Below are positions 1 through 22,055 of a stretch of 42,429 nucleotides of DNA, piece after piece. Position 1 is the first letter of the stretch. Each line of letters begins with the position of its first letter. The notes under the pieces are model-generated. The model was not told the DNA's origin. It saw nothing but the letters and a program-made list of their open reading frames with translations, and did no database searches. The position numbers and the translations under genes were made by a program. The DNA comes from Candidatus Saccharimonadota bacterium (GTDB lineage: Bacteria; Patescibacteriota; Saccharimonadia; Saccharimonadales; Saccharimonadaceae), in NCBI GenBank assembly GCA_017406745.1, contig JAFQXY010000040.1, forward strand, positions 1-42,429. Direction: 5' to 3'.

Positions 1-2277
1 AACGCATCCAGTGGCTCTACTTATAATGGTAAATGGGGACTAAAACCAAGTAAGTACTATAATACCAGTACTAATACTACAGTAGACAATACAGACACCA
101 CCACCGGATTATTCTTCCCAGCCCCAACCGTTAGTGGGTTTACTATAGCCAAGACCAATTGTGCTAATAGTACGTCCACAGTTACCAACCCAGACTGCCC
201 TAATCTGCAGGATACTTACACCTTCAGCCTAGGCGCTAGAGCAGACTATACCCAAATAGCAGGTACTTATACTAATACTTATGTATTACAAGCTGTAGGT
301 AATCCAATTAACTACTCTATTAGTTATACAGATGATAGTGGTGATAGTACAGTTAGTGGTGTACCTACTACACCTACATCTGGTTCTACTGGCACTACTG
401 GTGTAACGCTAAGTAGTGCTACTCCAACTCGTACAGGCTATACCTTTACCGGTTGGTGTAATACCACTACTACAGAATCTGGTACACTGTGTAATGGTAG
501 TACTACACCTACTTACACTGCAGGAGGATTATATGGTATAGACCAAACTACAGTAAACACTGCTACACTACATGCCCTTTGGAGTATTAAGAAATACGGC
601 CTAACCATCACCTTTGCTGGTAGTGGAGTAAGCAGTGTAGCAGTAAAGTCTGGTAGTGCTAGTGGTACTACAGTAGGTACAGTTAGTGCTAGTGGTGGTA
701 GTGTAGCTAATCTCACTTACAATACAACATATTACTTAGTACCAACATTTACTAGTACTAACTACATACTAGACAGTTGGAGCAATACTGGTAGTTATGG
801 TACTCTGTCTTCTACTACTGCTACTAATCCTACCTTTACTATAGGTGCTGGGAATGGGGCGGTAACTATTACTGGTAAATCTAATAGTTATACTATTTCA
901 TATAATGCCAATAACGGCACTGGTAGCATCAGTGACCAAACAGTTACACCAGGCAATAGTGTAGTGTTAGCAGACAACGCCTTTACTAGGAACAACTACT
1001 ACTTCAAAGGCTGGGCGACCAGTTCTGATGGTAGCGTAGCCTACAGGACTAACCAAACCATCACCCCCACTAGCAATATGACACTCTATGCTGTCTGGGG
1101 CAGTAGCACTAGCCAAACGCTCTATAATATAGTATCTTCCTTAACAAGAGGAAACCAAACCAATGATACTAATGCCACTACAGGTATTAAGACTAACCCC
1201 ACTAAAGCCACTTCTGGTGTCTGGACATATGATTCTAGCGTATTTGGTGAGAGTAGCGATGCAAGCAATGATAACCCCATCTACTACTACCGTGGCATAT
1301 TAGATGCAACCACCGGTAGCTATGGTAGTGATGGCGATGCGATGGACTACCCTAACTACGTAAAGATGACCACGGGAAGTAATACTACTTGTTGGCGCAT
1401 AGTAAGAACCACAGGCTCTGGTGGTGTAAAGATGATCTACAATGGTGTCTATGGTGCTACCACTAGTGGCTCATGTGCTAATGCTACTACCAATGCACAA
1501 TTAACTACTAGTGCTTTTAACGCAACTAGTAATGTAGGAAACAAAAGTATTATCGCTGTAGGCTATACCTTTAATAGTAACTATAAAACCACCACAGCAA
1601 GTACTACTGCAGGTAATCTATTTGGCACCAACTCTAGCTATACAGGTAATAATACTAGAAGCACTATTAAAACCTACATAGAAGATACTTGGTATGCAAG
1701 CAACATGACTAGCTGGACATCTAAACTAGAAGCCAGTGCTGGTTATTGTAATGACCGCTCTATTTATGACACATCAAATAATCTACTATCAGACACCACC
1801 AGCATTTCTACTCCATATACCACGGCAACTTCTGGTATAACCCAATATAACTTTGGCGCTAGACAACGTAATTTCACTACTACCCAAGCCCCCTCACTTA
1901 CTTGCCCATATAATGCCAGAGATCTATACCGCTATGTAGCTAGTAGTACTGGTGTATCTAATCAACTTAAATACCCAGCTGCCCTACTTACTGCAGATGA
2001 ATTGTCCTTTGCTGGGTCTGGTAGTAGCACTGCCACTAATGGTTCTGGCTACAATGCCAACTCATACCTACGTTCTGGCTCTGACTTCTGGCTGCTCTCT
2101 CCGAGCAGCCGGAACTCGAGCGGCGGTGCGCGCGGGTGTCTCCTGCGCTCGGGCGGCACTCTCTACCTCAACATCGTGCACTACTCGCTTGGTGTGCGCC
2201 CCGCCATTTCTCTCGCCTCTGGAACTACTGCCGCCTCTGGCTCTGGTACCGCCACTGATCCGTGGGTAGTCCAGTAA
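1..2277 (+). CDS. DGR target: large repetitive surface protein, 5' end outside window
   Basis: Frame 1 is open from the first base to the TAA at 2275-2277, giving 758 residues with the N-terminus outside the window; the GTG at 964 is internal, not the start. The protein is rich in Ser, Thr, Gly and Asn. It contains InlB B-repeat/Flg_new-like modules that end in W-x-x-x motifs (GYTFTGW, near residue 147, and YYFKGWATSSDG, near residue 336, followed by TLYAVWG). A globular C-terminal part begins near residue 370 and ends in FWLLSP...GVRPAISL, a pattern that resembles the DUF6273/C-type-lectin-like folds used by DGR targets. The variable repeat sits at residues 690-735, followed by a 23-residue invariant tail. 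It is probably exported and binds a ligand on a partner cell or surface (inference). Codon choice is AT-rich (ACT, AGT) except inside the repeat. Confidence 0.9.
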   Translation, partial: NASSGSTYNGKWGLKPSKYYNTSTNTTVDNTDTTTGLFFPAPTVSGFTIAKTNCANSTSTVTNPDCPNLQDTYTFSLGARADYTQIAGTYTNTYVLQAVGNPINYSISYTDDSGDSTVSGVPTTPTSGSTGTTGVTLSSATPTRTGYTFTGWCNTTTTESGTLCNGSTTPTYTAGGLYGIDQTTVNTATLHALWSIKKYGLTITFAGSGVSSVAVKSGSASGTTVGTVSASGGSVANLTYNTTYYLVPTFTSTNYILDSWSNTGSYGTLSSTTATNPTFTIGAGNGAVTITGKSNSYTISYNANNGTGSISDQTVTPGNSVVLADNAFTRNNYYFKGWATSSDGSVAYRTNQTITPTSNMTLYAVWGSSTSQTLYNIVSSLTRGNQTNDTNATTGIKTNPTKATSGVWTYDSSVFGESSDASNDNPIYYYRGILDATTGSYGSDGDAMDYPNYVKMTTGSNTTCWRIVRTTGSGGVKMIYNGVYGATTSGSCANATTNAQLTTSAFNATSNVGNKSIIAVGYTFNSNYKTTTASTTAGNLFGTNSSYTGNNTRSTIKTYIEDTWYASNMTSWTSKLEASAGYCNDRSIYDTSNNLLSDTTSISTPYTTATSGITQYNFGARQRNFTTTQAPSLTCPYNARDLYRYVASSTGVSNQLKYPAALLTADELSFAGSGSSTATNGSGYNANSYLRSGSDFWLLSPSSRNSSGGARGCLLRSGGTLYLNIVHYSLGVRPAISLASGTTAASGSGTATDPWVVQ
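2068..2204 (+). repeat. DGR variable repeat (VR)
   Basis: This 137-bp segment of the target gene aligns without gaps to the template repeat 401 bp downstream. It differs at 26 positions, every one an A in the template: 12 became G, 7 C and 7 T. The changes fall in 19 codons, mostly AAC or AAT. It begins with CTACGTTCTGGCTCT and ends with the invariant GC-rich GGTGTGCGCCCCGC, the expected place for the initiation-of-mutagenic-homing signal. Confidence 0.96.
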
Positions 2278-2468
2278 AGTAGAGAAAATTGCACTTTAAG
2301 TTCCAGACACTTGCTGACAAGCACCTTTTCTTAAGCAAAAACGACAGTTTTTGCTTGGTGAGGCTGCTTGCAGCCTCACTCCGCCCCGATTTAATGATTG
2401 GAGCGAGGCGAGGCTACAAGCCTCGAAGTAGTTTACCGCTAAACGAGACGTTTTTCACAGTTGTTTTG
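2278..2468. other. VR-TR spacer with three consecutive hairpins
   Basis: No credible gene. It holds three perfect inverted repeats in a row: 10-bp arms 2333-2342/2347-2356 (AAGCAAAAAC), 9-bp arms 2358-2366/2371-2379 (GTGAGGCTG) and 7-bp arms 2409-2415/2419-2425 (CGAGGCT). The first has a T-rich right arm and could terminate the target mRNA. The others could shape the 5' end of the template RNA or be a palindromic insertion. Confidence 0.6.
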
Positions 2469-2605
2469 CTACGTTCTGGCTCTAACTTCTGGCTGCTCTC
2501 TCCGAACAACCGGAACTCGAACGGCAATGCGAACGAGTATAACCTGAACTCGAACGGCAATCTCAACAACAACAACGTGAACAACACGAATGGTGTGCGC
2601 CCCGC
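2469..2605 (+). ncRNA. DGR template repeat (TR)
   Basis: This is the donor copy for VR. In the VR frame it reads as an Asn-rich string (many AAC/AAT codons). Random replacement of the first two bases of AAY cannot create a stop codon, a known design feature of DGR templates. It is noncoding. The reading frame at 2289-2627 that crosses it has no ribosome binding site and is a by-product of similarity to VR. TR lies between target and avd, in the same orientation as the reverse transcriptase. Confidence 0.95.
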
Positions 2606-2920: not shown

Positions 2921-3382
2921 ATGATCCAAAAAAGAGATGACAAAAAGCCCGAAGTAAAAGAGTTTAAATTAAAGATATTGATGCTGCAGCTAGATGAATA
3001 TATTAGAATACATATAATTCCACAGATACCAGCAGATTATAAGGAGTACAGGGAAGCTATACGTGAAGCGATGGATAGGGCTTGGCGAGCGATGTATCAT
3101 GCGGCCTTTACGACTAAAAGAGAGAGACAGAGAAATCTGGTGGAGCTAAAGATTGAATTAGCAATGGTAGAGACTTATATGAAAGAGATAAGAGACGTGT
3201 GTTATCGTGGAAAAGAGAAGCGGCGACTGGACAAAAACTCTGCACATAGGTTTGCGGTATGTGCGAAATATAACAAAGAAGTGATGAGTGTAGTGTGGGG
3301 GTGGGCGAAAAATGAAGACGCATCGTTAGATTCTTCGACTACGCAAAAAACAGCGAAATTAGTAGAGAAGGAGGAGATTTGA
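2921..3382 (+). CDS. avd: Avd-like DGR accessory protein
   Basis: A 153-aa, highly charged, predicted all-helical protein with no signal peptide or membrane segment. Size, helical pattern (runs of K/R/E with W at positions 47 and 128) and location directly upstream of the DGR reverse transcriptase match the accessory variability determinant (Avd). Avd is a four-helix-bundle pentamer that binds the RT and template RNA. The basic surface fits RNA binding. The start ATG follows GAAAGAGAGGTAAT. The stop TGA shares one base with the start of the RT gene, so the two are probably translationally coupled. The family call rests on context plus general features, since Avd sequences diverge strongly. 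Confidence 0.82.
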   Translation: MIQKRDDKKPEVKEFKLKILMLQLDEYIRIHIIPQIPADYKEYREAIREAMDRAWRAMYHAAFTTKRERQRNLVELKIELAMVETYMKEIRDVCYRGKEKRRLDKNSAHRFAVCAKYNKEVMSVVWGWAKNEDASLDSSTTQKTAKLVEKEEI

Positions 3383-4458
3383 TGGCTCATACAAGAACAC
3401 GAAGAATATACGATGAGGCGTTGCAATATGAAAAGATTTATACGGCGTGGAATACGGTGTACCATACTTGCAAAAATCAACAAGGGAAATTTGAATTTGC
3501 ATTGTTTGCACATGCGCGAGTAATGAAGATTATGGACGAGCTAAAAACACGCGCATATCTGCCCAATAGGTATAGATGTTTTATGATTTTTGAGCCAAAA
3601 CCGAGATTAGTGATGAGCCAATCCATTCGCGATAAGGTGGTAAATCATTTTGTAGCGAAGGAATATTTAATACCGCTACTAGAAAAAACTTTGATAGATG
3701 CTAATGTGGCGACACGCGAAGGGCGAGGGTCGGCATATGCTAATAAGATGCTTAGGAGATATTTTTCGCAGATGATGGCGGAGCGTCCCAAGGCAAAAAT
3801 ATATGCATTGAAAGTGGATGTGTCTAAGTATTTTTATTCTATAGACCATAAGATTTTGTTTGAAAAGTTGGAGCGTAAGATAAAAGATCGCGATGTGATT
3901 GAGATATTGCGGAGGATTGTGGACGAAACGGATAAATCGTATGTGAATAATGCCATTGATAGGTTTAATAAGTGGTACGGAACTGATATTCCACACTATG
4001 AGCAGGGTAAAGGATTGTCTATTGGGGCGATGACATCGCAGTTTTTGGCGATTTTTTATTTGAATAGTGTCGACCATTATATTAAGGAGGTACTGAAATG
4101 CAAGTATTTTATTAGATATATGGATGATTTTTTGATATTATCACATGATAAAGAATGGCTACGCGAGGTGAAAGAAGAAATTGCTAATAAGTTGGCAGAA
4201 TTAAAGCTGACGGTGAATCCGAAATCTGCGATATATAATTGCGATGGGGGCGGATTTGCTTTTTTAGGATATAGATATTATGTAGATAGGTGTGGGCGAA
4301 TAAGGATAGTGTGTTTAGCTAAAACGGTGCGGCGGATAAGGAGACGATTGGGTTTTTTAGCTCTGCATAACCCAGGCAAGCGAGTGCGGTCGTACGAATC
4401 GTACAGGGGGTTCTTTTTGTATGGTTGTCCTGTGCGGAAGATAGAGGCGTGGGTGTAG
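3382..4458 (+). CDS. DGR reverse transcriptase
   Basis: A 358-aa reverse transcriptase that copies TR RNA into adenine-mutagenized cDNA. Visible motifs are KVDVSKYFYSIDH (first catalytic Asp, RT motif A), GLSIGAMTSQFLAIFYLN (the IGxxxSQ form typical of DGR enzymes rather than the QG form of group II introns), FIRYMDDFLIL (catalytic YMDD) and FAFLGYRYY. There is no maturase or endonuclease domain. I chose ATG 3382, which overlaps the avd stop (TGATG) and is preceded by AAGGAGGAG at 3368-3376; the TTG at 3379 is one codon upstream and less likely. The C-terminus is basic, as expected for template-RNA binding. Confidence 0.95.
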   Translation: MAHTRTRRIYDEALQYEKIYTAWNTVYHTCKNQQGKFEFALFAHARVMKIMDELKTRAYLPNRYRCFMIFEPKPRLVMSQSIRDKVVNHFVAKEYLIPLLEKTLIDANVATREGRGSAYANKMLRRYFSQMMAERPKAKIYALKVDVSKYFYSIDHKILFEKLERKIKDRDVIEILRRIVDETDKSYVNNAIDRFNKWYGTDIPHYEQGKGLSIGAMTSQFLAIFYLNSVDHYIKEVLKCKYFIRYMDDFLILSHDKEWLREVKEEIANKLAELKLTVNPKSAIYNCDGGGFAFLGYRYYVDRCGRIRIVCLAKTVRRIRRRLGFLALHNPGKRVRSYESYRGFFLYGCPVRKIEAWV

Positions 4459-4596: not shown

Positions 4597-5229
4597 CTAC
4601 ATAAGATCGAGCGACTTAAGCTCGACTATTTTCTCTCGAATAATATTGATGTATTCATCCGAATCTGTTTTATCTTTTTGAAACGAACGGTTAATCGAGC
4701 CAACTATAATGTCGGCTAACTGAATAAGATTATCTCGGCGAGAATCGCTTGTATCAAAATCTGTGACTTTCTTGTTCTCTCCAGAGTTTAGTTCGCGACG
4801 GATGTAGGTTTTTACGCGTAATTTATATTGTTTTGTATATTTGCCGTCCATTCTAACCGCAGCATCTTCTAGTGGAATAATAGCAAGCAGCTCCTTAGTA
4901 GACCAATTATAGAGCTTATCATTGTCCGCCAATTTAAACATATTCGGGTACTTTGCCTTATCCACATAAATTGCATAAATATCAAAGTTGTACCGATTTA
5001 CGATCCTTAAGAACTCTAGTTTGATGGACTTAGCTGTCGTTCTAAACTTGAATTCATGCGAATCTTTCCATCCGAGTGATTTGCGGTAGTCGGAGATTTC
5101 CTTGTTTACGATGGTCGCAACTTTCGGATCTATAAATAAAGCTGCGGCTAATACGAAAGTGGAGCTACTTGCGCCTTTCTTGAATCCTGGGTCGCCCGAA
5201 TCATCTATAAAAACTAATTGTTTACTCAT
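4597..5229 (-). CDS. DUF3800 family protein
   Basis: A 210-aa soluble protein with the family hallmarks: an N-terminal acidic motif FIDDSGDPG (residues 7-15) and a C-terminal QLADIIVGSINR (about 170-181). DUF3800 has an RNase H-like arrangement of acidic residues and is often found near mobile or defence genes; its activity is not established. It is convergent with the DGR and is not part of it on orientation. Its -10 box TATAAT (5243-5238 on the minus strand) ends 8 nt before the ATG, with no Shine-Dalgarno, so the mRNA is probably leaderless or nearly so. Confidence 0.85.
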   Translation of the reverse strand: MSKQLVFIDDSGDPGFKKGASSSTFVLAAALFIDPKVATIVNKEISDYRKSLGWKDSHEFKFRTTAKSIKLEFLRIVNRYNFDIYAIYVDKAKYPNMFKLADNDKLYNWSTKELLAIIPLEDAAVRMDGKYTKQYKLRVKTYIRRELNSGENKKVTDFDTSDSRRDNLIQLADIIVGSINRSFQKDKTDSDEYINIIREKIVELKSLDLM

Positions 5230-13487: not shown

Positions 13488-15452
13488 ATGTTGATGCTTT
13501 CTTCTATTATTCTGGCCATCTTGACGGCATGTTTCATCGTGATGGCAGAGGGGGTGGCTCCGCTCCCTGGATGCACGAGGATTCGTGCGAGGCGGTTTTG
13601 GATTCTGCGTGGATCCGATGTCGTATGGGTTGGCGCCATTGCCATTGGTGCTGGCGTGGGCGTAATTAATTACGTTACGCCGAAGTTGACCAGCGCTATG
13701 CTTTGGTTGGCGCCGTTCCTGTTGGCATTGCTGGTGGCGGCTATCGTAGCCTTGGTGTTTTACTGGCACCGTTATGGCTGTGATGGATTGTTGCACGTGT
13801 TGCCATTTGCCGTCCTAGTGATTTTGGCGTTTGCGCCGATGAAGGCCTTAGCGGTTCAAGCAGTGGGGTGTGTGGAACTTGCCACAAAGGCGACCCCCAG
13901 CCCCCTGGTGACAACAGTAATTATGCTGGTCCCTACCGCTATTACCGTTATTGCTATCGGCGTGATGTTTACTACCATGTTTGCATGGTGGTATACTGAT
14001 GGCCGAGGACGGCATTGGAAACCGCTTGCTATTGTGGCGGCGGTGTTGACAGTAGCGATGCTCGCTGGTGTTGTCGCCCCGCCCGTAGCGAGCGCCGTGC
14101 AGGAAACTAGAGCTTTGACGGCGTCTACGTCCAAAACCGTGCAAACGGTAGAGGACAAGGCTGCTGACGCTGCGGCGGAGGCAGAAGCTAAAACCGTTGA
14201 GGAAGCCGCCGCCGAGAACACCACCACTACTCAATCCGATGGCAACATCCAGGTTGGGTTCTACAACCTGAGCATGCTTAAGGACAATGAGAGTTCCAAC
14301 GATTATTACTTTGGTTTTGATCCGTTGGAGCTGGACTCCGTAGAGGCCTTGATGAACGGTAGGGGGCTGTCACAGCTGTCTACCGCGGAAAAGGAGCAAC
14401 TTACTATCATCGTCAGAGATGAGCTGTTTCATCGGATGAGCATCGACCCAGTTTTTCTTGCGGCAATAGCTGCTCGGACTGACGTCGATTATGGGACATC
14501 TTACATTGGCGTTTACTTTGACCAGTTTGACAGTGACTGGAAACTGGCCATGAACGCCGCGGCGACACGCTGGGCAAACAATCCCGAGGAATTTGCTGCC
14601 ACTGCGAAAGCGCTGGAAGCATTCCTGCGGGATTCGTCCGCTTGGGTAGAAACTCAGACTGATGCGAAGGACATGATGTACATGAATCCTCACACCGCGT
14701 CTGGGATTCCGGAAATTGTTGTCTTTGATGCCGACCAAAAGGAAGGCACATTCTTGGTGTTTACCAAGGATATCAAAGGCACAAAGATCCGGATGGGTCT
14801 CCGCCTTGAATGCGGGTATCAGCCTGTAAATGTGGCGGAGAAGCTTGGGATTACTCCTGAGCCGAACCCCGTGAAGACTTCTACACCGACTACGTCCAAT
14901 ACTGGGACGCCCAAGAAGTCTTCCACACCTAGTTCGAGCTCCACGCCGAGTTCGAACAAGCCCAAGCCCTCTCCGAGTCCGTCTCCAAGCCCGAGCCCCA
15001 AGCCGAGCCCGAGCCCGAGTCCGAGCCCGACGCCGGCGACAACTAAAAAGAACCCCAGCCAAACTCCGGCTGAGGTCGGGACCAACGACACCAAAGGTTG
15101 GGATAACACCAACGATGGTGTCGGAGCCCAATATTCGGCGAAGGAGCCGAAGAGTGGCTCCGCCAAGAAGACCGACCAGCAGGTCGCTCAGAACACTGCC
15201 AATAACAAGGCAGCCAATGAGCAATCAAAGGCTGGCGGCACCAATAATACCCCTTCCACGCCGACGCCGGCGAACACCCAAGTTAGCAATAACGCTGAAA
15301 AGGGTACCGGTAACGGCGGTATAGATAAGCCCACCGCCACTAAAAATCAGCAGGCGAGCAATTCGAATGGCTCGTCAGCGACTAGTGGCGCTGGGGCCGG
15401 AGGCAATGCCTCCGAAAAGGCTGACGGATCCTGGGGGGGTCCGCCAGACTGA
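13488..15452 (+). CDS. Polytopic membrane protein with Pro/Ser-rich extracytoplasmic stalk
   Basis: 654 aa, not recognised. About six membrane segments lie in residues 1-200 (1-21, 45-62, 72-92, 102-118, 140-165, 178-200). An Ala/Glu-rich helical stretch (205-245) follows, then an unknown folded domain (about 250-445), a stalk with SPSPSPSP-type repeats (about 445-540) and a low-complexity Asn/Gly/Ser/Lys tail. This layout suggests an envelope-spanning surface protein. ATG 13488 follows GGAAAGGAAGG. The codon bias is GC-rich like the 12667 gene. The antisense frames over it are shadows of the biased composition. Regulation may involve the structured leader. Confidence 0.82.
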   Translation: MLMLSSIILAILTACFIVMAEGVAPLPGCTRIRARRFWILRGSDVVWVGAIAIGAGVGVINYVTPKLTSAMLWLAPFLLALLVAAIVALVFYWHRYGCDGLLHVLPFAVLVILAFAPMKALAVQAVGCVELATKATPSPLVTTVIMLVPTAITVIAIGVMFTTMFAWWYTDGRGRHWKPLAIVAAVLTVAMLAGVVAPPVASAVQETRALTASTSKTVQTVEDKAADAAAEAEAKTVEEAAAENTTTTQSDGNIQVGFYNLSMLKDNESSNDYYFGFDPLELDSVEALMNGRGLSQLSTAEKEQLTIIVRDELFHRMSIDPVFLAAIAARTDVDYGTSYIGVYFDQFDSDWKLAMNAAATRWANNPEEFAATAKALEAFLRDSSAWVETQTDAKDMMYMNPHTASGIPEIVVFDADQKEGTFLVFTKDIKGTKIRMGLRLECGYQPVNVAEKLGITPEPNPVKTSTPTTSNTGTPKKSSTPSSSSTPSSNKPKPSPSPSPSPSPKPSPSPSPSPTPATTKKNPSQTPAEVGTNDTKGWDNTNDGVGAQYSAKEPKSGSAKKTDQQVAQNTANNKAANEQSKAGGTNNTPSTPTPANTQVSNNAEKGTGNGGIDKPTATKNQQASNSNGSSATSGAGAGGNASEKADGSWGGPPD

Positions 15453-15536
15453 TTTGCGTACAAAGGGTGGAGCCTATGGACGGTTGCGATGAAATAAAAA
15501 TACGCGACTAGTACTCCAAGTACATTATTTACACGA

Positions 15537-15564
15537 AAGTCCGGCGACAATAGTCGCCGGGCTT
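15537..15564 (+). terminator. GC-rich hairpin after the stalk protein gene
   Basis: AAGT-CCGGCGAC (15537-15548), loop AATA, GTCGCCGG-GCTT (15553-15564), 12 bp with one wobble. There is no T-run, so termination may be weak or factor-dependent. Confidence 0.55.
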
Positions 15565-15585
15565 CACCCAAGTTAGCATAATAGT

Positions 15586-15609
15586 TTGAAATTTGAGATG
15601 ATTCGGTTG
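15586..15609. repeat. Inverted copy of the 5' leader segment
   Basis: This 24-nt segment is the reverse complement of 13371-13394 except at two positions, where the RNA could still form G-U pairs. The 16-bp block TGAGATGATTCGGTTG is exact. It lies just after the terminator-like hairpin, so the two copies flank the 654-aa gene. Confidence 0.8.
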
Positions 15610-15807
15610 TGAAAGATATTAATTATCAGACGAAAATTAACAATTCGGCTAGCAACAGTTTAAACTTTTCTTTGGAAAGAATAGTTTAGCAAAAATAACC
15701 AGTTTATTTTTAAAACAAAAGTGAGTTCCGTTTTAAAAATATTAAGTTTTGTTAATTTTTTTAAAAAAATCACAACCAATAATTTGTTAAAGAAAGGAAA
15801 TATTAAA
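15610..15807 (+). other. AT-rich leader of the DUF11-like gene
   Basis: No gene. Very AT-rich, with a run TTTTTTTAAAAAAA near 15758-15771. I see no convincing -35/-10 pair. It ends in GAAAGGAAA before ATG 15808. Confidence 0.5.
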
Positions 15808-17055
15808 ATGAATAAGATTTATAAAGCTGTGCTTGGTGTAGCAGTTGCAGGAATTGTGGCTGGTGCATCTATCGCTCCTGTGGCGATGGTAAATGCTGGC
15901 GGTGACTCCTTAAATGGTAGGCCAGCATATACGCTTGCTCAAATAGATAATCAAGTACTAGGTGATTCAATTGTATTGAACTCCATCTCTGATGGTCCAT
16001 TTGGCGATGAGCGTAACTTCGTAGGCGCAAAGCAAAGTACCGATAATGGCACTGTGTGGAACGCTGATAATATTAATGTAAAAGATGGTGATGTGGTCAC
16101 TATTCGCTTGTTTGTACATAACAACAGTCCAAAAGGCGAAGATGCGATTGCCAAGGGTGTGTCTGCTAGTTTCTCTATGCCTACTGCAGTAGGCAGTAGC
16201 CAAACTATCGTGGGCTACCTAAACGCTTCTAATGATACCGTTCACCGCTATTGGGATGAAGTAACACTAAACTCTGATAGTGATTTCTATTTGGAGTATG
16301 TAAATGGTTCTGCTAAGTATACCAATAATGTAGGTACCTTTGCGCTTACAGATAGTATTATCACTTCTGGTGCAGCACTTGGTTACACTTCTATGAACGG
16401 TGAGATTCCTGGTTGCTATCAATATAGTGGTCAGGCTACTATTCAAGTGAAAGTGCACTCTTCTATAAACTCTAAGGTTGCTAAAACAGTACGTATTAAA
16501 GGTACTAAGACTTGGAGTGAATCTGTAGAAGCTAAAGTTGGTGACGAAGTTGAATATCAGATTGAATATGTTAACTTGTTGGAGGAAACTGCAAAAAACG
16601 TAATGATACGCGATGTGCTTCCAAACAACGTAGAGTATGTAGCTGGTTCTACATATCTATATAACGCAAGTCACCAAAATGGTATACAATTAACCGATGA
16701 TTCAGTGACTACATCTGGTATTAACATTGGTAACTATGTAACTGGTGGTAATGCTTATGTGCGCTTTACTGTAAAGGTGGTAGATAAAGACCTAGCATGT
16801 GGTAACAACCAATTAGTAAACTGGGCTTCTTCTACTGTAAATGGTAAAGTTGTAAAAGACGATGCGTCTGTGATGGTATCTAAGACTGGTGGCACTTGTG
16901 ATGAGGTTCCTGCGAACTCTGATCCTGTGGTGCACGGTACTCCTTCTACCATCGTAAACACTGGTCCTGAGACTATTGTGACTGGCGCGATTGGCGCTGG
17001 TAGCGCGGTAACTGCGCTTGGTTACTTTATTGCTAGCCGTAAAAAGTTAATATAA
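15808..17055 (+). CDS. Secreted DUF11-like surface protein with C-terminal anchor
   Basis: 415 aa from ATG 15808 (Shine-Dalgarno AGAAAGGAAA); the in-frame ATG-like extension upstream has no ribosome site. An N-terminal signal peptide (1-30, ending APVAMVNAGG) precedes a beta-rich domain (35-225). A DUF11-type repeat domain follows (about 240-360; WSESVEAKVGDEVEYQIEY, DVLPNNVEYVAGST). The C-terminus has VNTGPETI, a hydrophobic helix and SRKKLI, resembling a sortase-type TGP sorting signal; whether a sortase processes it is inference. It is probably an adhesive or structural surface protein. Codons for Asp, Phe and Thr are C-biased, consistent with high expression. Confidence 0.85.
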   Translation: MNKIYKAVLGVAVAGIVAGASIAPVAMVNAGGDSLNGRPAYTLAQIDNQVLGDSIVLNSISDGPFGDERNFVGAKQSTDNGTVWNADNINVKDGDVVTIRLFVHNNSPKGEDAIAKGVSASFSMPTAVGSSQTIVGYLNASNDTVHRYWDEVTLNSDSDFYLEYVNGSAKYTNNVGTFALTDSIITSGAALGYTSMNGEIPGCYQYSGQATIQVKVHSSINSKVAKTVRIKGTKTWSESVEAKVGDEVEYQIEYVNLLEETAKNVMIRDVLPNNVEYVAGSTYLYNASHQNGIQLTDDSVTTSGINIGNYVTGGNAYVRFTVKVVDKDLACGNNQLVNWASSTVNGKVVKDDASVMVSKTGGTCDEVPANSDPVVHGTPSTIVNTGPETIVTGAIGAGSAVTALGYFIASRKKLI

Positions 17056-17100
17056 TTCTGACCGCTTCAAAGTATAGTCGCTTGAGAGCGATCGTGAAAC

Positions 17101-17140
17101 AAAAATCCCCTGTGTTTCTAGTGCGGGGGATTTTTGGTAT
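17101..17140 (+). terminator. Intrinsic terminator
   Basis: AAAAATCCCC (17101-17110) pairs with GGGGATTTTT (17126-17135) around a 15-nt loop. T-rich sequence follows. It ends the DUF11-like gene. Confidence 0.9.
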
Positions 17141-17182
17141 TTTTTGATAAAAATAAAAATGCTTATGTTATAATGGTTGTAT

Positions 17183-18265
17183 ATGGATCCGTCATACAAT
17201 TCTTTTGGTGGTAATGCAAACGCTGGTAACAGTGGTGCTGTCGGTGGGATGACAAATCCTCAGAATGTTGTGGGGAGGCAATCATTAGTTAGCAACTCTA
17301 GTGCGGTGGGTGCTGGGCAGAGTGGCGTGGTGGCGCCTGTGGTAGGACAGTCAGCACAACAGCCGGTAATTAGTTCTGGTACAGGCGATATTGTATTAAA
17401 TAACAATGGCAAAAAGTCACGTAAGCCGTTAGTTATAGCTATAATAGTTGTAGTGGTAATGTTGATAATGGCGGTGATCGCTTTGGCAGTAAGTGGAGTA
17501 TTTGGTGGGAAAAAGACTAGTAATGGTAATGGTGGGATAAAGATTGCTGGTACGCAGGAATATTTGAATTATGTGGTAAATGGCGATATGGATAATTCTG
17601 AAGTAGGGGATGGATATTCTGATGCACAAACATATTATATACAGAAAGCACTATTTATTAATAATGATGATTGGGACGGTTTTTATAAGACGGCAAGTGA
17701 GGATTTGAATAATTTTTTGAAGCAAGCTGAGGAAGAAAGCAGTCAGGCAAATATGATTAGCGAGCAGTTGGGATTAGTGGAGATGTTTAATGTGTATAAC
17801 AATTTGAGTGGTTATGATGTGAATGGGCTAATGCAGGCTTATGCAGATGGGAGTTATAATAATGCGCAGTCGTTAATTAGCGAGCAGTTGGATAGTTTGA
17901 ATATAGGTGTGGTTTATGTGGGGGAGTATGTGAATAGGATGGATGCTGTGATGGATACAGTGGGTATGGTTGTGACTTTGTATGAAGAAAATGGCTGTAC
18001 TGGTGGGGGTGGGATGGAGGCTTTGTCGCTATGTGCGATGACAGAGGCGGGATATAATGACTTGCAAACTTTGATGAGTGATGCATATACCAAGTATAGC
18101 GAGTTGAATTATACAATGTCTTCGGCGGTGAAATATTATATAAGGGAAGCGTATGGGTTAAATGGTATTTGGAATAGCGGAGTAGATATGGATGGCTCAG
18201 TTGATGATGGTAGTGAGGAAAGTAGTGACGCTGGAAATAACGAACAAGGAGGTAATGATGCGTAG
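17183..18265 (+). CDS. Single-pass membrane protein, secretion operon
   Basis: 360 aa, not recognised. A Gly/Asn/Ser/Val-rich N-terminus of about 75 residues precedes one membrane helix (LVIAIIVVVVMLIMAVIALAV, about 80-100). About 250 mostly helical, acidic extracytoplasmic residues follow, with an Asp/Glu/Ser-rich tail. I chose ATG 17183 rather than TTG 17177, since TATAAT (17169-17174) ends 8 nt upstream and no Shine-Dalgarno is present. It overlaps the next gene by 8 nt, so it is the first gene of an operon with the VirB6/TrbL-like protein and may be a subunit of the same envelope machine. Confidence 0.82.
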   Translation: MDPSYNSFGGNANAGNSGAVGGMTNPQNVVGRQSLVSNSSAVGAGQSGVVAPVVGQSAQQPVISSGTGDIVLNNNGKKSRKPLVIAIIVVVVMLIMAVIALAVSGVFGGKKTSNGNGGIKIAGTQEYLNYVVNGDMDNSEVGDGYSDAQTYYIQKALFINNDDWDGFYKTASEDLNNFLKQAEEESSQANMISEQLGLVEMFNVYNNLSGYDVNGLMQAYADGSYNNAQSLISEQLDSLNIGVVYVGEYVNRMDAVMDTVGMVVTLYEENGCTGGGGMEALSLCAMTEAGYNDLQTLMSDAYTKYSELNYTMSSAVKYYIREAYGLNGIWNSGVDMDGSVDDGSEESSDAGNNEQGGNDA

Positions 18266-21200
18266 TTTGAAATATTTGGTGTTCGGTGGGATAATGATGT
18301 TGGCTTTGTCTGTGGCAGGAGTGAGTGGGGCGAGTGCAATAAACTATGAAGATAAAATGAATTATGAGGGGGTGATAACTTGTTATAGAACGGATTCTAG
18401 CAGTGGCGGGTTGATAAATAGGACTACTTTGGAGGATTTTGATGGATCTGCTAGTGGGCTATTGCCAAATAATAGTAAGATTGTGCCCAGAATAGGTAGT
18501 GAAGAAAGCAAGATTTCTTGTTATGATTTAATGACTTCTAAGACTGCGCTAAAATTATCACAAAACACTAATATGACTGCAGGAGCTAAAAGAAGTGTGC
18601 TGGAGTCTATAAAATACCAGGTAAGTCAGAGTGGCGTAAGTGGAGTGGTAAATGCGGTAAATAATGCAGTAAATAGTGATTCAAAGTGCTATGCGTTTCC
18701 ATATATAGAGCGCAATACTAGTGGTGGGACGGATAAAGTATTATATTCACAGAATTTTTGTGCGAGCAATAATACGGTATCCTTTAATGGCGCAATAAAC
18801 TCTGATGGGTATATTAAATTTGAGCCAGTGTCTGGTTCATCGGTGAAAGTTACTGCAAATAATAAGAGGTGTGTTTTTGATATAAGCGATGGTTCGATTA
18901 GCGGTTGTAATTATTCTGGGTTTTCAAGCGAATTAAATTTTAAAAATGACCCAGTAAAGCTAATTGCGTCTGTGGGGAATTTCATTGCCTCAAATATGGG
19001 CTCGACTCCTGATACTGGTATAAATGATGTGCGTTACGATGGTAGCACTTCAACGCATGGTGATAGAGAGAGCAACGCGCGCACAGAATATAAGGTTTTT
19101 TCTGCATGTCAGAATTATGCTGCGCACGCTACTGGTATCAACTGTACGAGCCATGATAGTTCGATTGAAGCGCCAAGTGTAGCGTTGACAACTAACTCGG
19201 ATATGAATGCTGTGTATGTTAAGCCAAATTTGACTTATACGGAGCAAAGTACTGGTGATGTAGATACAGCTAATCAAAATATTAATGAAGTGACTAAGAT
19301 TTTTTCTGGTGGGTCGGTTGAAAGATACAGTGATTTAAAATTTACTGATGCCGAGAAATATCAACTATACGACTATTATTTGAAGGATATTTTCAAGATT
19401 ACTTCGCCAGCTTGTTCTGATGGAGCAACCGTAAATGGAGCAGGGCAGTATTCGGCAAGGATGTGGTGGAGTGAGCAGAATAAATTTGCAACTTGTTATT
19501 TTAATACTGGTGATGGTGTAAATATAAATAATATTAAAGTTTATGGTGTTAATGATAATGGGCATTTTGGTAGATTAATGACGTTTAACGAAGTAATTAC
19601 GGCTTTAAATGGGCTAACTTCTTTAGAAGAAAATCCTGGTGACGCTATTGCTGAAAATGAAGAAAATACAGAGGCAAAAAGTATAGGGCAGTTGTGCCAG
19701 GGGTCTGATATAGTGGGGGTAAAGTGGGCGCTCTGCCCAGCGCTGGAAAATATGACATATACAGCAAATGGCTTGGATAGCACTATTGCTGACATGCTGG
19801 AGGTAGATACTAGTTTGTATGGTATGACCGATAAAAGTGGTCAAGCAACTGGGACCTATATCGTATGGGAGATAATGAGAAATGTAGCCAATATTGCTAT
19901 GGTGATATTCTTGATGGTGATAATATTTTCACAGCTTACTGGTTATGGTATAGACAATTATGGCATTAAGAAGATGTTGCCACGATTAATAATTATGGCG
20001 ATACTGATTAATCTTAGTTTTTATATTTGTGAAATTATTATAGATATTTCCAATGTGCTAGGCGAGGCTTTGAGGAATTTGTTTGGCGGGGTGGGAAACA
20101 TGATTCAGGAGCGAAATGGATTTGATTTTGGCGAAGGGTTTATTAGCACGTTGGTGACGGCGTTGCTTGGGGGTACGGCTGGGGTTGGAGCGATGTCTGG
20201 GACAATAGTTACTGTGGGGCTATTAGCCGGTGGTGGGGCGGGTTCGTTGGTAATGATAATAATAATGGTACTACTGGCTTTGGTGGCAATAATATTTGCG
20301 GTATTGTTATTCTTTGCGATGTTAGGTGCAAGAATGATATTGATAATTGGATGTGTGGTGGCTGCGCCAGTGGTGTTTGCATGTTATATTTTGCCAAATA
20401 CACAAAACATATTTAAAATGTGGAAGAAGTTGTTTGAGGCATGTTTGGTGATATTCCCGATTTGTGGGGCAATTGGTGGAATGAGCCACTTGATAAAGGC
20501 AATAGTCTTTTCGCTAGATGGAGTACACGCGTGGATGGCAGTGGTAGCGATGCTTGCACCGTTTTTGCCATTCTTTATCTTGCCTACTTTGCTGAGGTCT
20601 GCGATTTCTATGCTAGGTAAGGTGGGTGCTGGTATTACGGCGATGGGAAATGCAGTACGGAGTGGTGCTGCACGTGGACGCTCTGCTGCGGAGGGTGCTT
20701 TACAGAATTCTGGTGCGTATAAGGATGCAACGCGTAGGGCGCAAGGTGCAAGAGCCGAGAGGAGTAATGCTAAATATGCGGCTGCGAAGAAACGTGTTAA
20801 TGAATTACTGGCAAAACAGAAGAGCGGTACACTAACTGGCGCCGAGCAACGTGAGTTGAGGGGGGCACAAAGGCGTACAAATGCGTTTAGAACAAGACAA
20901 AATGCACTTAACTCGCAGTTATTGGACAGACAATCTGCAGAGGATGTGGAGGCTGCAAGAGTGACGATGCGTGCGGAGACTGGTGATTATGACAATGAAA
21001 TCATGGCTACCCAGCTGGATAATATTTTGTCAAAGGTTGATGGTGGAACGGCGACAAAAGAAGATGAGACGAAGGCGCGAGCATTGATGGCACAGTTAGC
21101 TTCACAGGCGGGAGGCGCTAGTAAACTAGCAGATTTGACTACTAAATACGATAAGGCTACTGGGAATATAACGGCTGAGAGGACTGGGTCTTCAGCAAGA

Positions 21201-22055
21201 TTTGTTGGCCAATATATGGCTCAAAATGAAAAAGTGCGTGGAGCTATTGAAAGTAAGAACCGCTATGGCGCTTCTAGGATTAAGGATATTGCTTCTGGAG
21301 TGATTAGCGATGATATAGGGCAGGCTGATTATGACAAAATGGATGCTGGGTACTTGTCGTATTTGAGAGAGCGTCGCGCTAATGGTGAAAGTATTGATGG
21401 TGATATGGAAGAAAGTGCTTGGAAGAATAACCAAATCATGACGAATCCAAATTATGTTGCCAAGACCGTATCGCAAGATATAACAAGAGATGTGTTGGAT
21501 AAGGATAAAGATTTTGTAACTCAGAAGGGTGGAGTAGTTACTAGGTATGCTGGGGAGTTGGGCCAGGAGCGTATTAATAAAATGGCGTCAAATAATACGC
21601 TATTTGGTATGGGTGATATCGCAGATGGTGTAGAAAGAACTATTAAGGGGCTTGCGTCTGCTCCAGTATCTTCTACGGAATATGTTGATATGGGCGGAGA
21701 TAGAACATATGAAGTAAGATCATCTGGTGGCAGAAATTATGTTGTGCAGGACGGTCGAGAAATAAACGTCGACGTTCAGAAGTTAGAGAATGCAGGATAC
21801 CAAACTAGAGATGACTACAATAAGATGGTGGCAGGGTTTAGGCAACAGGAGGATGATGCGTTGAGAATTGGTAAAAAGCCTATAACCTATGTAGACAGCA
21901 ATAGCGGTGTGGTTAGTTCGTTTGACGGATATGCTGTTCCTGCTGGGTTTGACGATAAGGCAATACATACCGTGCGAGATGGCCAGCATATATACAGAGA
22001 TAGGAATAATGGTCGTGAGTGGAACGCGACCACTGGGCGATATACGAAATACTAA
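18258..22055 (+). CDS. Giant VirB6/TrbL-like membrane protein
   Basis: 1265 aa. A signal peptide (1-25, ending AGVSGASA) precedes about 500 extracytoplasmic residues with several Cys. A polytopic core follows (about 545-810), with segments such as VANIAMVIFLMVIIFSQL, LIIMAILINLSFYICEIII and LVMIIIMVLLALVAIIFAVL. A Lys/Arg/Ala-rich cytoplasmic tail of about 450 residues follows. This layout resembles the VirB6/TrbL inner-membrane channel of type IV secretion systems in CPR genomes. The family is inferred from topology; no VirB4 or VirD4 lies in the window. ATG 18258 is preceded by AAGGAGGT. Confidence 0.82.
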   Translation: MRSLKYLVFGGIMMLALSVAGVSGASAINYEDKMNYEGVITCYRTDSSSGGLINRTTLEDFDGSASGLLPNNSKIVPRIGSEESKISCYDLMTSKTALKLSQNTNMTAGAKRSVLESIKYQVSQSGVSGVVNAVNNAVNSDSKCYAFPYIERNTSGGTDKVLYSQNFCASNNTVSFNGAINSDGYIKFEPVSGSSVKVTANNKRCVFDISDGSISGCNYSGFSSELNFKNDPVKLIASVGNFIASNMGSTPDTGINDVRYDGSTSTHGDRESNARTEYKVFSACQNYAAHATGINCTSHDSSIEAPSVALTTNSDMNAVYVKPNLTYTEQSTGDVDTANQNINEVTKIFSGGSVERYSDLKFTDAEKYQLYDYYLKDIFKITSPACSDGATVNGAGQYSARMWWSEQNKFATCYFNTGDGVNINNIKVYGVNDNGHFGRLMTFNEVITALNGLTSLEENPGDAIAENEENTEAKSIGQLCQGSDIVGVKWALCPALENMTYTANGLDSTIADMLEVDTSLYGMTDKSGQATGTYIVWEIMRNVANIAMVIFLMVIIFSQLTGYGIDNYGIKKMLPRLIIMAILINLSFYICEIIIDISNVLGEALRNLFGGVGNMIQERNGFDFGEGFISTLVTALLGGTAGVGAMSGTIVTVGLLAGGGAGSLVMIIIMVLLALVAIIFAVLLFFAMLGARMILIIGCVVAAPVVFACYILPNTQNIFKMWKKLFEACLVIFPICGAIGGMSHLIKAIVFSLDGVHAWMAVVAMLAPFLPFFILPTLLRSAISMLGKVGAGITAMGNAVRSGAARGRSAAEGALQNSGAYKDATRRAQGARAERSNAKYAAAKKRVNELLAKQKSGTLTGAEQRELRGAQRRTNAFRTRQNALNSQLLDRQSAEDVEAARVTMRAETGDYDNEIMATQLDNILSKVDGGTATKEDETKARALMAQLASQAGGASKLADLTTKYDKATGNITAERTGSSARFVGQYMAQNEKVRGAIESKNRYGASRIKDIASGVISDDIGQADYDKMDAGYLSYLRERRANGESIDGDMEESAWKNNQIMTNPNYVAKTVSQDITRDVLDKDKDFVTQKGGVVTRYAGELGQERINKMASNNTLFGMGDIADGVERTIKGLASAPVSSTEYVDMGGDRTYEVRSSGGRNYVVQDGREINVDVQKLENAGYQTRDDYNKMVAGFRQQEDDALRIGKKPITYVDSNSGVVSSFDGYAVPAGFDDKAIHTVRDGQHIYRDRNNGREWNATTGRYTKY

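Follow-up and report, generated by a model that had tools for sequence, protein, structure and literature searches.

A chromosomal diversity-generating retroelement of a Saccharibacterium with signs of recent adenine-directed homing

Introduction

Near the beginning of the DNA analysed here, a 137-bp stretch inside a protein-coding gene (VR) recurs in similar form just behind that gene (TR), and the locus raises the question of whether the pair belongs to a diversity-generating retroelement (DGR) that has recently rewritten its target, or whether the resemblance came about by other means. The window, that is, the entire stretch of 42,429 nucleotides, is contig C31 of a 693 kb Saccharibacteria assembly (40 contigs, 85% complete) whose closest named relatives are Saccharibacteria of goat ileum and sheep jejunum; the bacterium is a tiny gut inhabitant that probably depends on a host. 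An earlier note, made from the letters alone, had placed an active-looking DGR at 2068-2605. This range does hold both VR and TR, but the element is larger, reaching from the target gene to the end of the reverse transcriptase (RT) gene at 4458. It is already known that CPR bacteria carry DGRs, that one TR can have several targets and that the order of the cassette varies (PMC8144416, PMC6642488). More unusual in the case described below are a natural loss-of-function comparison, targets that appear to be updated at different times, and the presence of two unrelated DGRs in a 0.7 Mb genome.

Results

The cassette is encoded entirely on the forward strand in the order target, TR, 315-nt spacer, avd and RT. 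The reading frame of the target gene (1-2277) is open from base 1 to the stop codon at 2277 and encodes at least 758 residues, its 5' end being truncated by the contig end at base 1; homologues in relatives comprise 600-1000 residues. It contains a Listeria-Bacteroides (InlB-like) repeat at residues 297-365 (889-1095; PF09479, E 6.9e-18) and, within its C-terminal DUF6273-like domain, the variable stretch VR1 (2068-2204). TR (2469-2605) is intergenic, located between the target stop and avd, and is followed by the spacer (2606-2920), by avd for a 153-residue accessory protein (2921-3382) and by the gene for an RT of up to 359 residues (3379-4458) with its YMDD motif at 4117-4128. Directly behind the latter, and convergent with it, lies a DUF3800 gene on the reverse strand (4597-5229).

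VR1 and TR form a gap-free alignment, 401 bases apart, and are identical at 111 of 137 positions; the next-best placement of the pair on either strand of the whole window yields 58/137. Every one of the 26 changes from TR to VR1 is at a TR adenine (12 A to G, 7 A to C, 7 A to T), although only 40 of TR's 137 bases are adenines (hypergeometric P = 3.3e-18), and VR1 equals TR at all 97 non-adenine positions. The earlier note had counted the same substitutions, spread over the same 19 codons, and our recount agrees. Its further statement that no other base differs holds within the 137 bp but fails just outside, where the similarity extends for another six bases (to 2210 and 2611, respectively) and includes a two-base swap at 2205-2206 (CA in VR, AC in TR), one base of which is a non-adenine. 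As many as 39 of the 40 TR adenines occupy the first or second position of a codon in the VR frame, a stop codon is unreachable from any TR codon via a change at A, and the 23 adenine-bearing TR codons allow for about 10^23 possible protein variants. An exact match to TR occurs only once in the assembly.

Judged by similarity searches, the RT is of the DGR type. Its best PDB sequence match is 8ub7, entitled a DGR ribonucleoprotein (98.7 bits; next 40.7), it matches RVT_1 and PHROG 1423, tblastn against phages retrieves phage DGR RTs including BPP-1 brt (28% identity), and the motifs YMDD and SIGAMTSQ are present. Assignment to group II intron RTs was rejected (score 99.7 against an NCBIfam cut-off of 300), as was assignment to retron RTs (retron St85, 43.3 against 235), and an Rfam scan detected neither group II intron nor retron (msr-msd) RNA. 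The 153-residue partner matches PHROG 3206 (Avd protein of DGR) weakly (E 0.0027) and its sequence has no match in the PDB. When modelled (pLDDT 79) as a four-helix bundle, it finds its best fold match in the Avd-like chain of 8ub7, with BPP-1 Avd (4dwl) close behind (TM-score about 0.84-0.85, normalised by target length). Foldseek assigns these matches weak E-values (0.02-0.07), a common outcome with helical bundles; as a fold match, the resemblance to both structures is clear. For the target, DUF6273 is matched by 11 of 13 homologous domains (best 5.3e-06) and not by the window's own protein taken alone; no match emerged when the target was searched as a profile against the PDB, and an AlphaFold model of the domain reached a pLDDT of 40. 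DUF6273 has been reported as the VR-bearing domain of gut phage DGR targets and as C-type-lectin-like (PMC11792537, PMC10743442), and the target is probably a repeat-bearing cell-surface protein with a domain of this kind.

The 3' ends of the two repeats carry a probable IMH (2191-2210, GGTGTGCGCCCCGC followed by CATTTC) and a probable IMH* (2592-2611, the same GC-rich GGTGTGCGCCCCGC followed by ACTTTC). In the Saccharibacteria cassettes compared, all VRs except a decayed copy on contig C37 terminate in this GC-rich stretch followed by CATTTC, and in all TRs it is followed by ACTTTC. The CA/AC swap is conserved in five Saccharibacteria cassettes and looks like a fixed difference between IMH and IMH*. 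VR-like ends with CATTTC were likewise observed at L098 (G005), L099 (G078) and L100 (G106), in genomes in which this Avd was not found, and represent either orphan targets or incomplete assemblies.

The spacer between TR and avd, in turn, looks like a conserved structured RNA. It folds better than its shuffles (z -3.1), and RNAalifold applied to five species yields 59 pairs, 25 of which are changed on both sides, with 89% of cells pairing. None of 500 shuffles matched these two values, and partners slid by 1-3 columns gave at most 10 double-changed pairs, albeit part of the compensatory excess is to be expected, since the structure came from the same small alignment. A long-range helix is predicted between UUUCAC just 3' of TR (2608-2613) and GUGAAA (2758-2763), which lies within the most conserved block of the spacer; the helix is kept in 5/5 species and nearly invariant, so that it is conserved while showing little covariation. 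The spacer RNA of BPP-1 is responsible for recruiting RT-Avd and for priming the synthesis of cDNA at IMH* (PMC12875486), and by analogy the spacer described here may play a similar role. Phage DGRs also possess a hairpin or cruciform that is rich in GC and located 4-34 bp downstream of VR (PMC3240598). A hairpin of this BPP-1 type was not found behind VR1, where the DNA folds no better than shuffles and the nearest perfect inverted repeat of at least 7 bases, which is A/T-rich, starts at 2333, 129 bp behind VR. The hairpin is known from phage DGRs and is not defining for all DGRs.

The neighbours of the cassette are housekeeping genes (aldolase, HrcA, GrpE, ribosomal L25 and TIM), and a viral contig collection contained neither a relative of the RT nor a copy of the VR/TR pattern; a prophage location was therefore rejected and the DGR regarded as chromosomal. 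Among the genomes of the genus, only 5 of 174 carry this Avd.

Genomes G022 (L018), G075 (L017) and G147 (L089) contain cassettes of the same gene order, as does a contig (L020; RT 50% identical) that has been assigned to an Erysipelotrichaceae MAG. The comparison covered one genome per species. The adjacent VRs of these four relatives differ from their TRs at 26, 24, 18 and 23 positions, respectively, so that together with the pair in the window 117 of 117 differences are at TR adenines. On the L020 contig (2524-9479), the cassette adjoins the gene of a large serine recombinase, a hint that a mobile element and inter-phylum transfer may be involved, with mis-binning as the alternative. In genome G185 (L019/L090), avd is cut short, the RT is frameshifted, and 8 of the 32 differences between VR and TR are off-adenine (Fisher P 2e-6). 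It is suggestive, albeit from one lineage only, that drift of VR goes along with the loss of avd and RT. In principle, the broken frames might stem from faulty assembly; the drift seen in VR does not depend on them. The RT of G022 likewise contains a frameshift, namely of one base in a homopolymer just after YMDD (L018 2455-2480; 7 T instead of 6), which may reflect very recent decay, a sequencing error or phase variation. Since its adjacent VR nevertheless exhibits the adenine-only pattern, a pure pattern is no proof of activity.

TR appears to have more than one target. A second variable stretch, VR2, which is unlinked to TR, resides at C18:13900-14036 inside another List_Bact_rpt protein and differs from TR at 24 positions, 20 of them at A and four off-adenine. 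In G022, the one adjacent VR has 0 off-adenine differences and the four distal VRs have 7-14. Moreover, TR positions 21 and 62 are T in both TR and the adjacent VR of G022 but in none of its four distal VRs, and are C in the TRs of the other three species of the comparison. Most simply, TR of G022 would have changed, and the change would have been copied to the adjacent VR and not yet to the distal ones, in which case positions 21 and 62 would bear witness to TR-to-VR transfer at bases other than adenine; possibly, the distal VRs instead depend on a different TR that the assembly lacks. The efficiency of DGRs depends on target location and orientation (PMC12875486), which would fit the gap between adjacent and distal targets, and we infer that several targets of one TR are updated at staggered times.

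A further paralogue on contig C37 (C37:30474-31637) provides an example of what ordinary divergence looks like in this genome: it differs from the same TR at 52 positions, of which 28 are off-adenine (22 of the 28 being third positions of codons), and it has an altered IMH. This third target paralogue (L091 1821-4883, reverse strand) has a transposase-like gene adjacent to it.

A second, unrelated DGR is present in the same genome (L012, on G000:C24, 6371-8739). Its RT is about 27% identical, it has a partner gene for 294 residues, and its TR, which is located behind the RT and antisense to it, encodes a Fib_succ-like VR. Each of the 14 loci of the genus that were examined (L066-L079) exhibits the antisense-TR arrangement with adenine-biased change, and inverted RT cassettes are a known DGR pattern (PMC6642488). 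The VR2-bearing protein (L004 13080-15266, reverse strand) possesses a second, C-terminal Fib_succ_major domain, which differs from its homologue on contig C7 (L013 1045-1466) mainly in codon positions 1 and 2 (46 of 59 differences), as if both domains were VRs of a third TR; a TR matching the L004 and C7 domains was not found.

Discussion

Our findings argue strongly for a complete and recently working chromosomal DGR in this Saccharibacterium, and recent mutagenic homing is well supported by the sequence comparisons. By the mechanism deduced from BPP-1, the TR-spacer RNA would be bound by RT and Avd, with the helix linking the spacer to the sequence just behind TR helping to start cDNA synthesis at IMH*. 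The RT would then copy TR with errors opposite adenines, and the resulting cDNA would replace VR in the adjacent target gene and also, less often or less recently, in the unlinked second target. The outcome would be a set of variants of a probable surface protein, perhaps serving attachment to host cells or variation of a phage receptor.

It is also conceivable, though rather unlikely, that the DGR is genuine and now silent, VR1 then being the frozen product of past homing, which selection has preserved or which has had too little time to drift. The G022 cassette, with its pure adenine pattern despite a one-base frameshift in RT, illustrates how such a state might look. However, avd and RT are both open in the cassette described here, and VR1 is free of non-adenine changes (0/97), whereas VR2 has acquired four and VR in the more broken cassette of G185 eight. 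The comparison with VR2 likewise supports, in relative terms, the description of the homing as recent in the earlier note. One may furthermore ask whether VR1 is an assembly artefact, that is, a consensus or chimera of metagenome alleles, given that the assembly comprises 40 contigs and that the contigs of VR1 and VR2 both end inside target genes. This is very improbable: alleles merged into a chimera would yield an adenine-only pattern solely if they had been generated by a DGR, the frame and the motif ends are intact, and four other assemblies follow the same adenine rule. Finally, it is hardly credible that VR and TR are paralogous stretches which ordinary mutation together with selection, or else a base editor, has driven apart, even though both encode a similar peptide and the target family does include paralogues, because the changes are confined to A and lead to all three other bases (we know of no single deaminase that accomplishes this), because TR is not part of a longer gene, and because the truly diverged paralogue on C37 differs mostly in third positions and off-adenine (28/52, against 0/117 in the five adjacent VRs), so that the rejection of ordinary divergence in the earlier note was well founded.

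Returning to a recently working DGR, we tentatively envisage, with slightly less than even confidence, that one TR drives several unlinked surface-protein genes, of which the adjacent one is rewritten often and the distal ones seldom, with off-adenine differences serving as a clock, while the independent antisense-TR DGR serves other lectin-like domains encoded by this genome.

The cassette resembles the DGR of Bordetella phage BPP-1 (mtd, avd, TR, spacer, brt) in having a related RT, the same Avd fold, adenine-only change between TR and VR, a slightly differing IMH and IMH*, and a structured spacer RNA behind TR. In contrast to the phage element, it is located on a bacterial chromosome, TR precedes avd with the spacer sitting between the two, the hairpin behind VR was not found, and Mtd is replaced as the target by a repeat protein that has a DUF6273-like domain. 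Like the DGRs of Patescibacteria/CPR (DGR clade 2; Roux et al. 2021, PMC8144416), it is encoded by the cell in a CPR genome, but its targets have recognisable repeat and DUF6273-like domains, and its relatives come from the ruminant gut and not from water. VR within a DUF6273-type domain is shared with gut phage targets, namely those of Faecalibacterium prophages (PMC11792537) and of phages nd4 and nd12 (PMC10743442), the RT of nd12 being among the closest phage RTs (30%). Unlike the genes of those phage proteins, the target gene described here lies beside housekeeping genes and encodes Listeria-Bacteroides repeats.

The cassettes free of off-adenine change, together with one broken and drifting cassette, constitute a natural test set, and the adjacent and distal targets of one TR appear to be at different stages of updating. 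The spacer with its compensatory changes lends itself to comparison with the BPP-1 ribonucleoprotein. Should the targets bind host cells, the DGR would vary an attachment protein and leave the rest of a very small genome unmutated. Elsewhere in the window (13488-22055, forward strand), long ORFs encode 654, 444, 362 and 1287 residues, with DUF11/DUF7619 in one of them as the only Pfam match.
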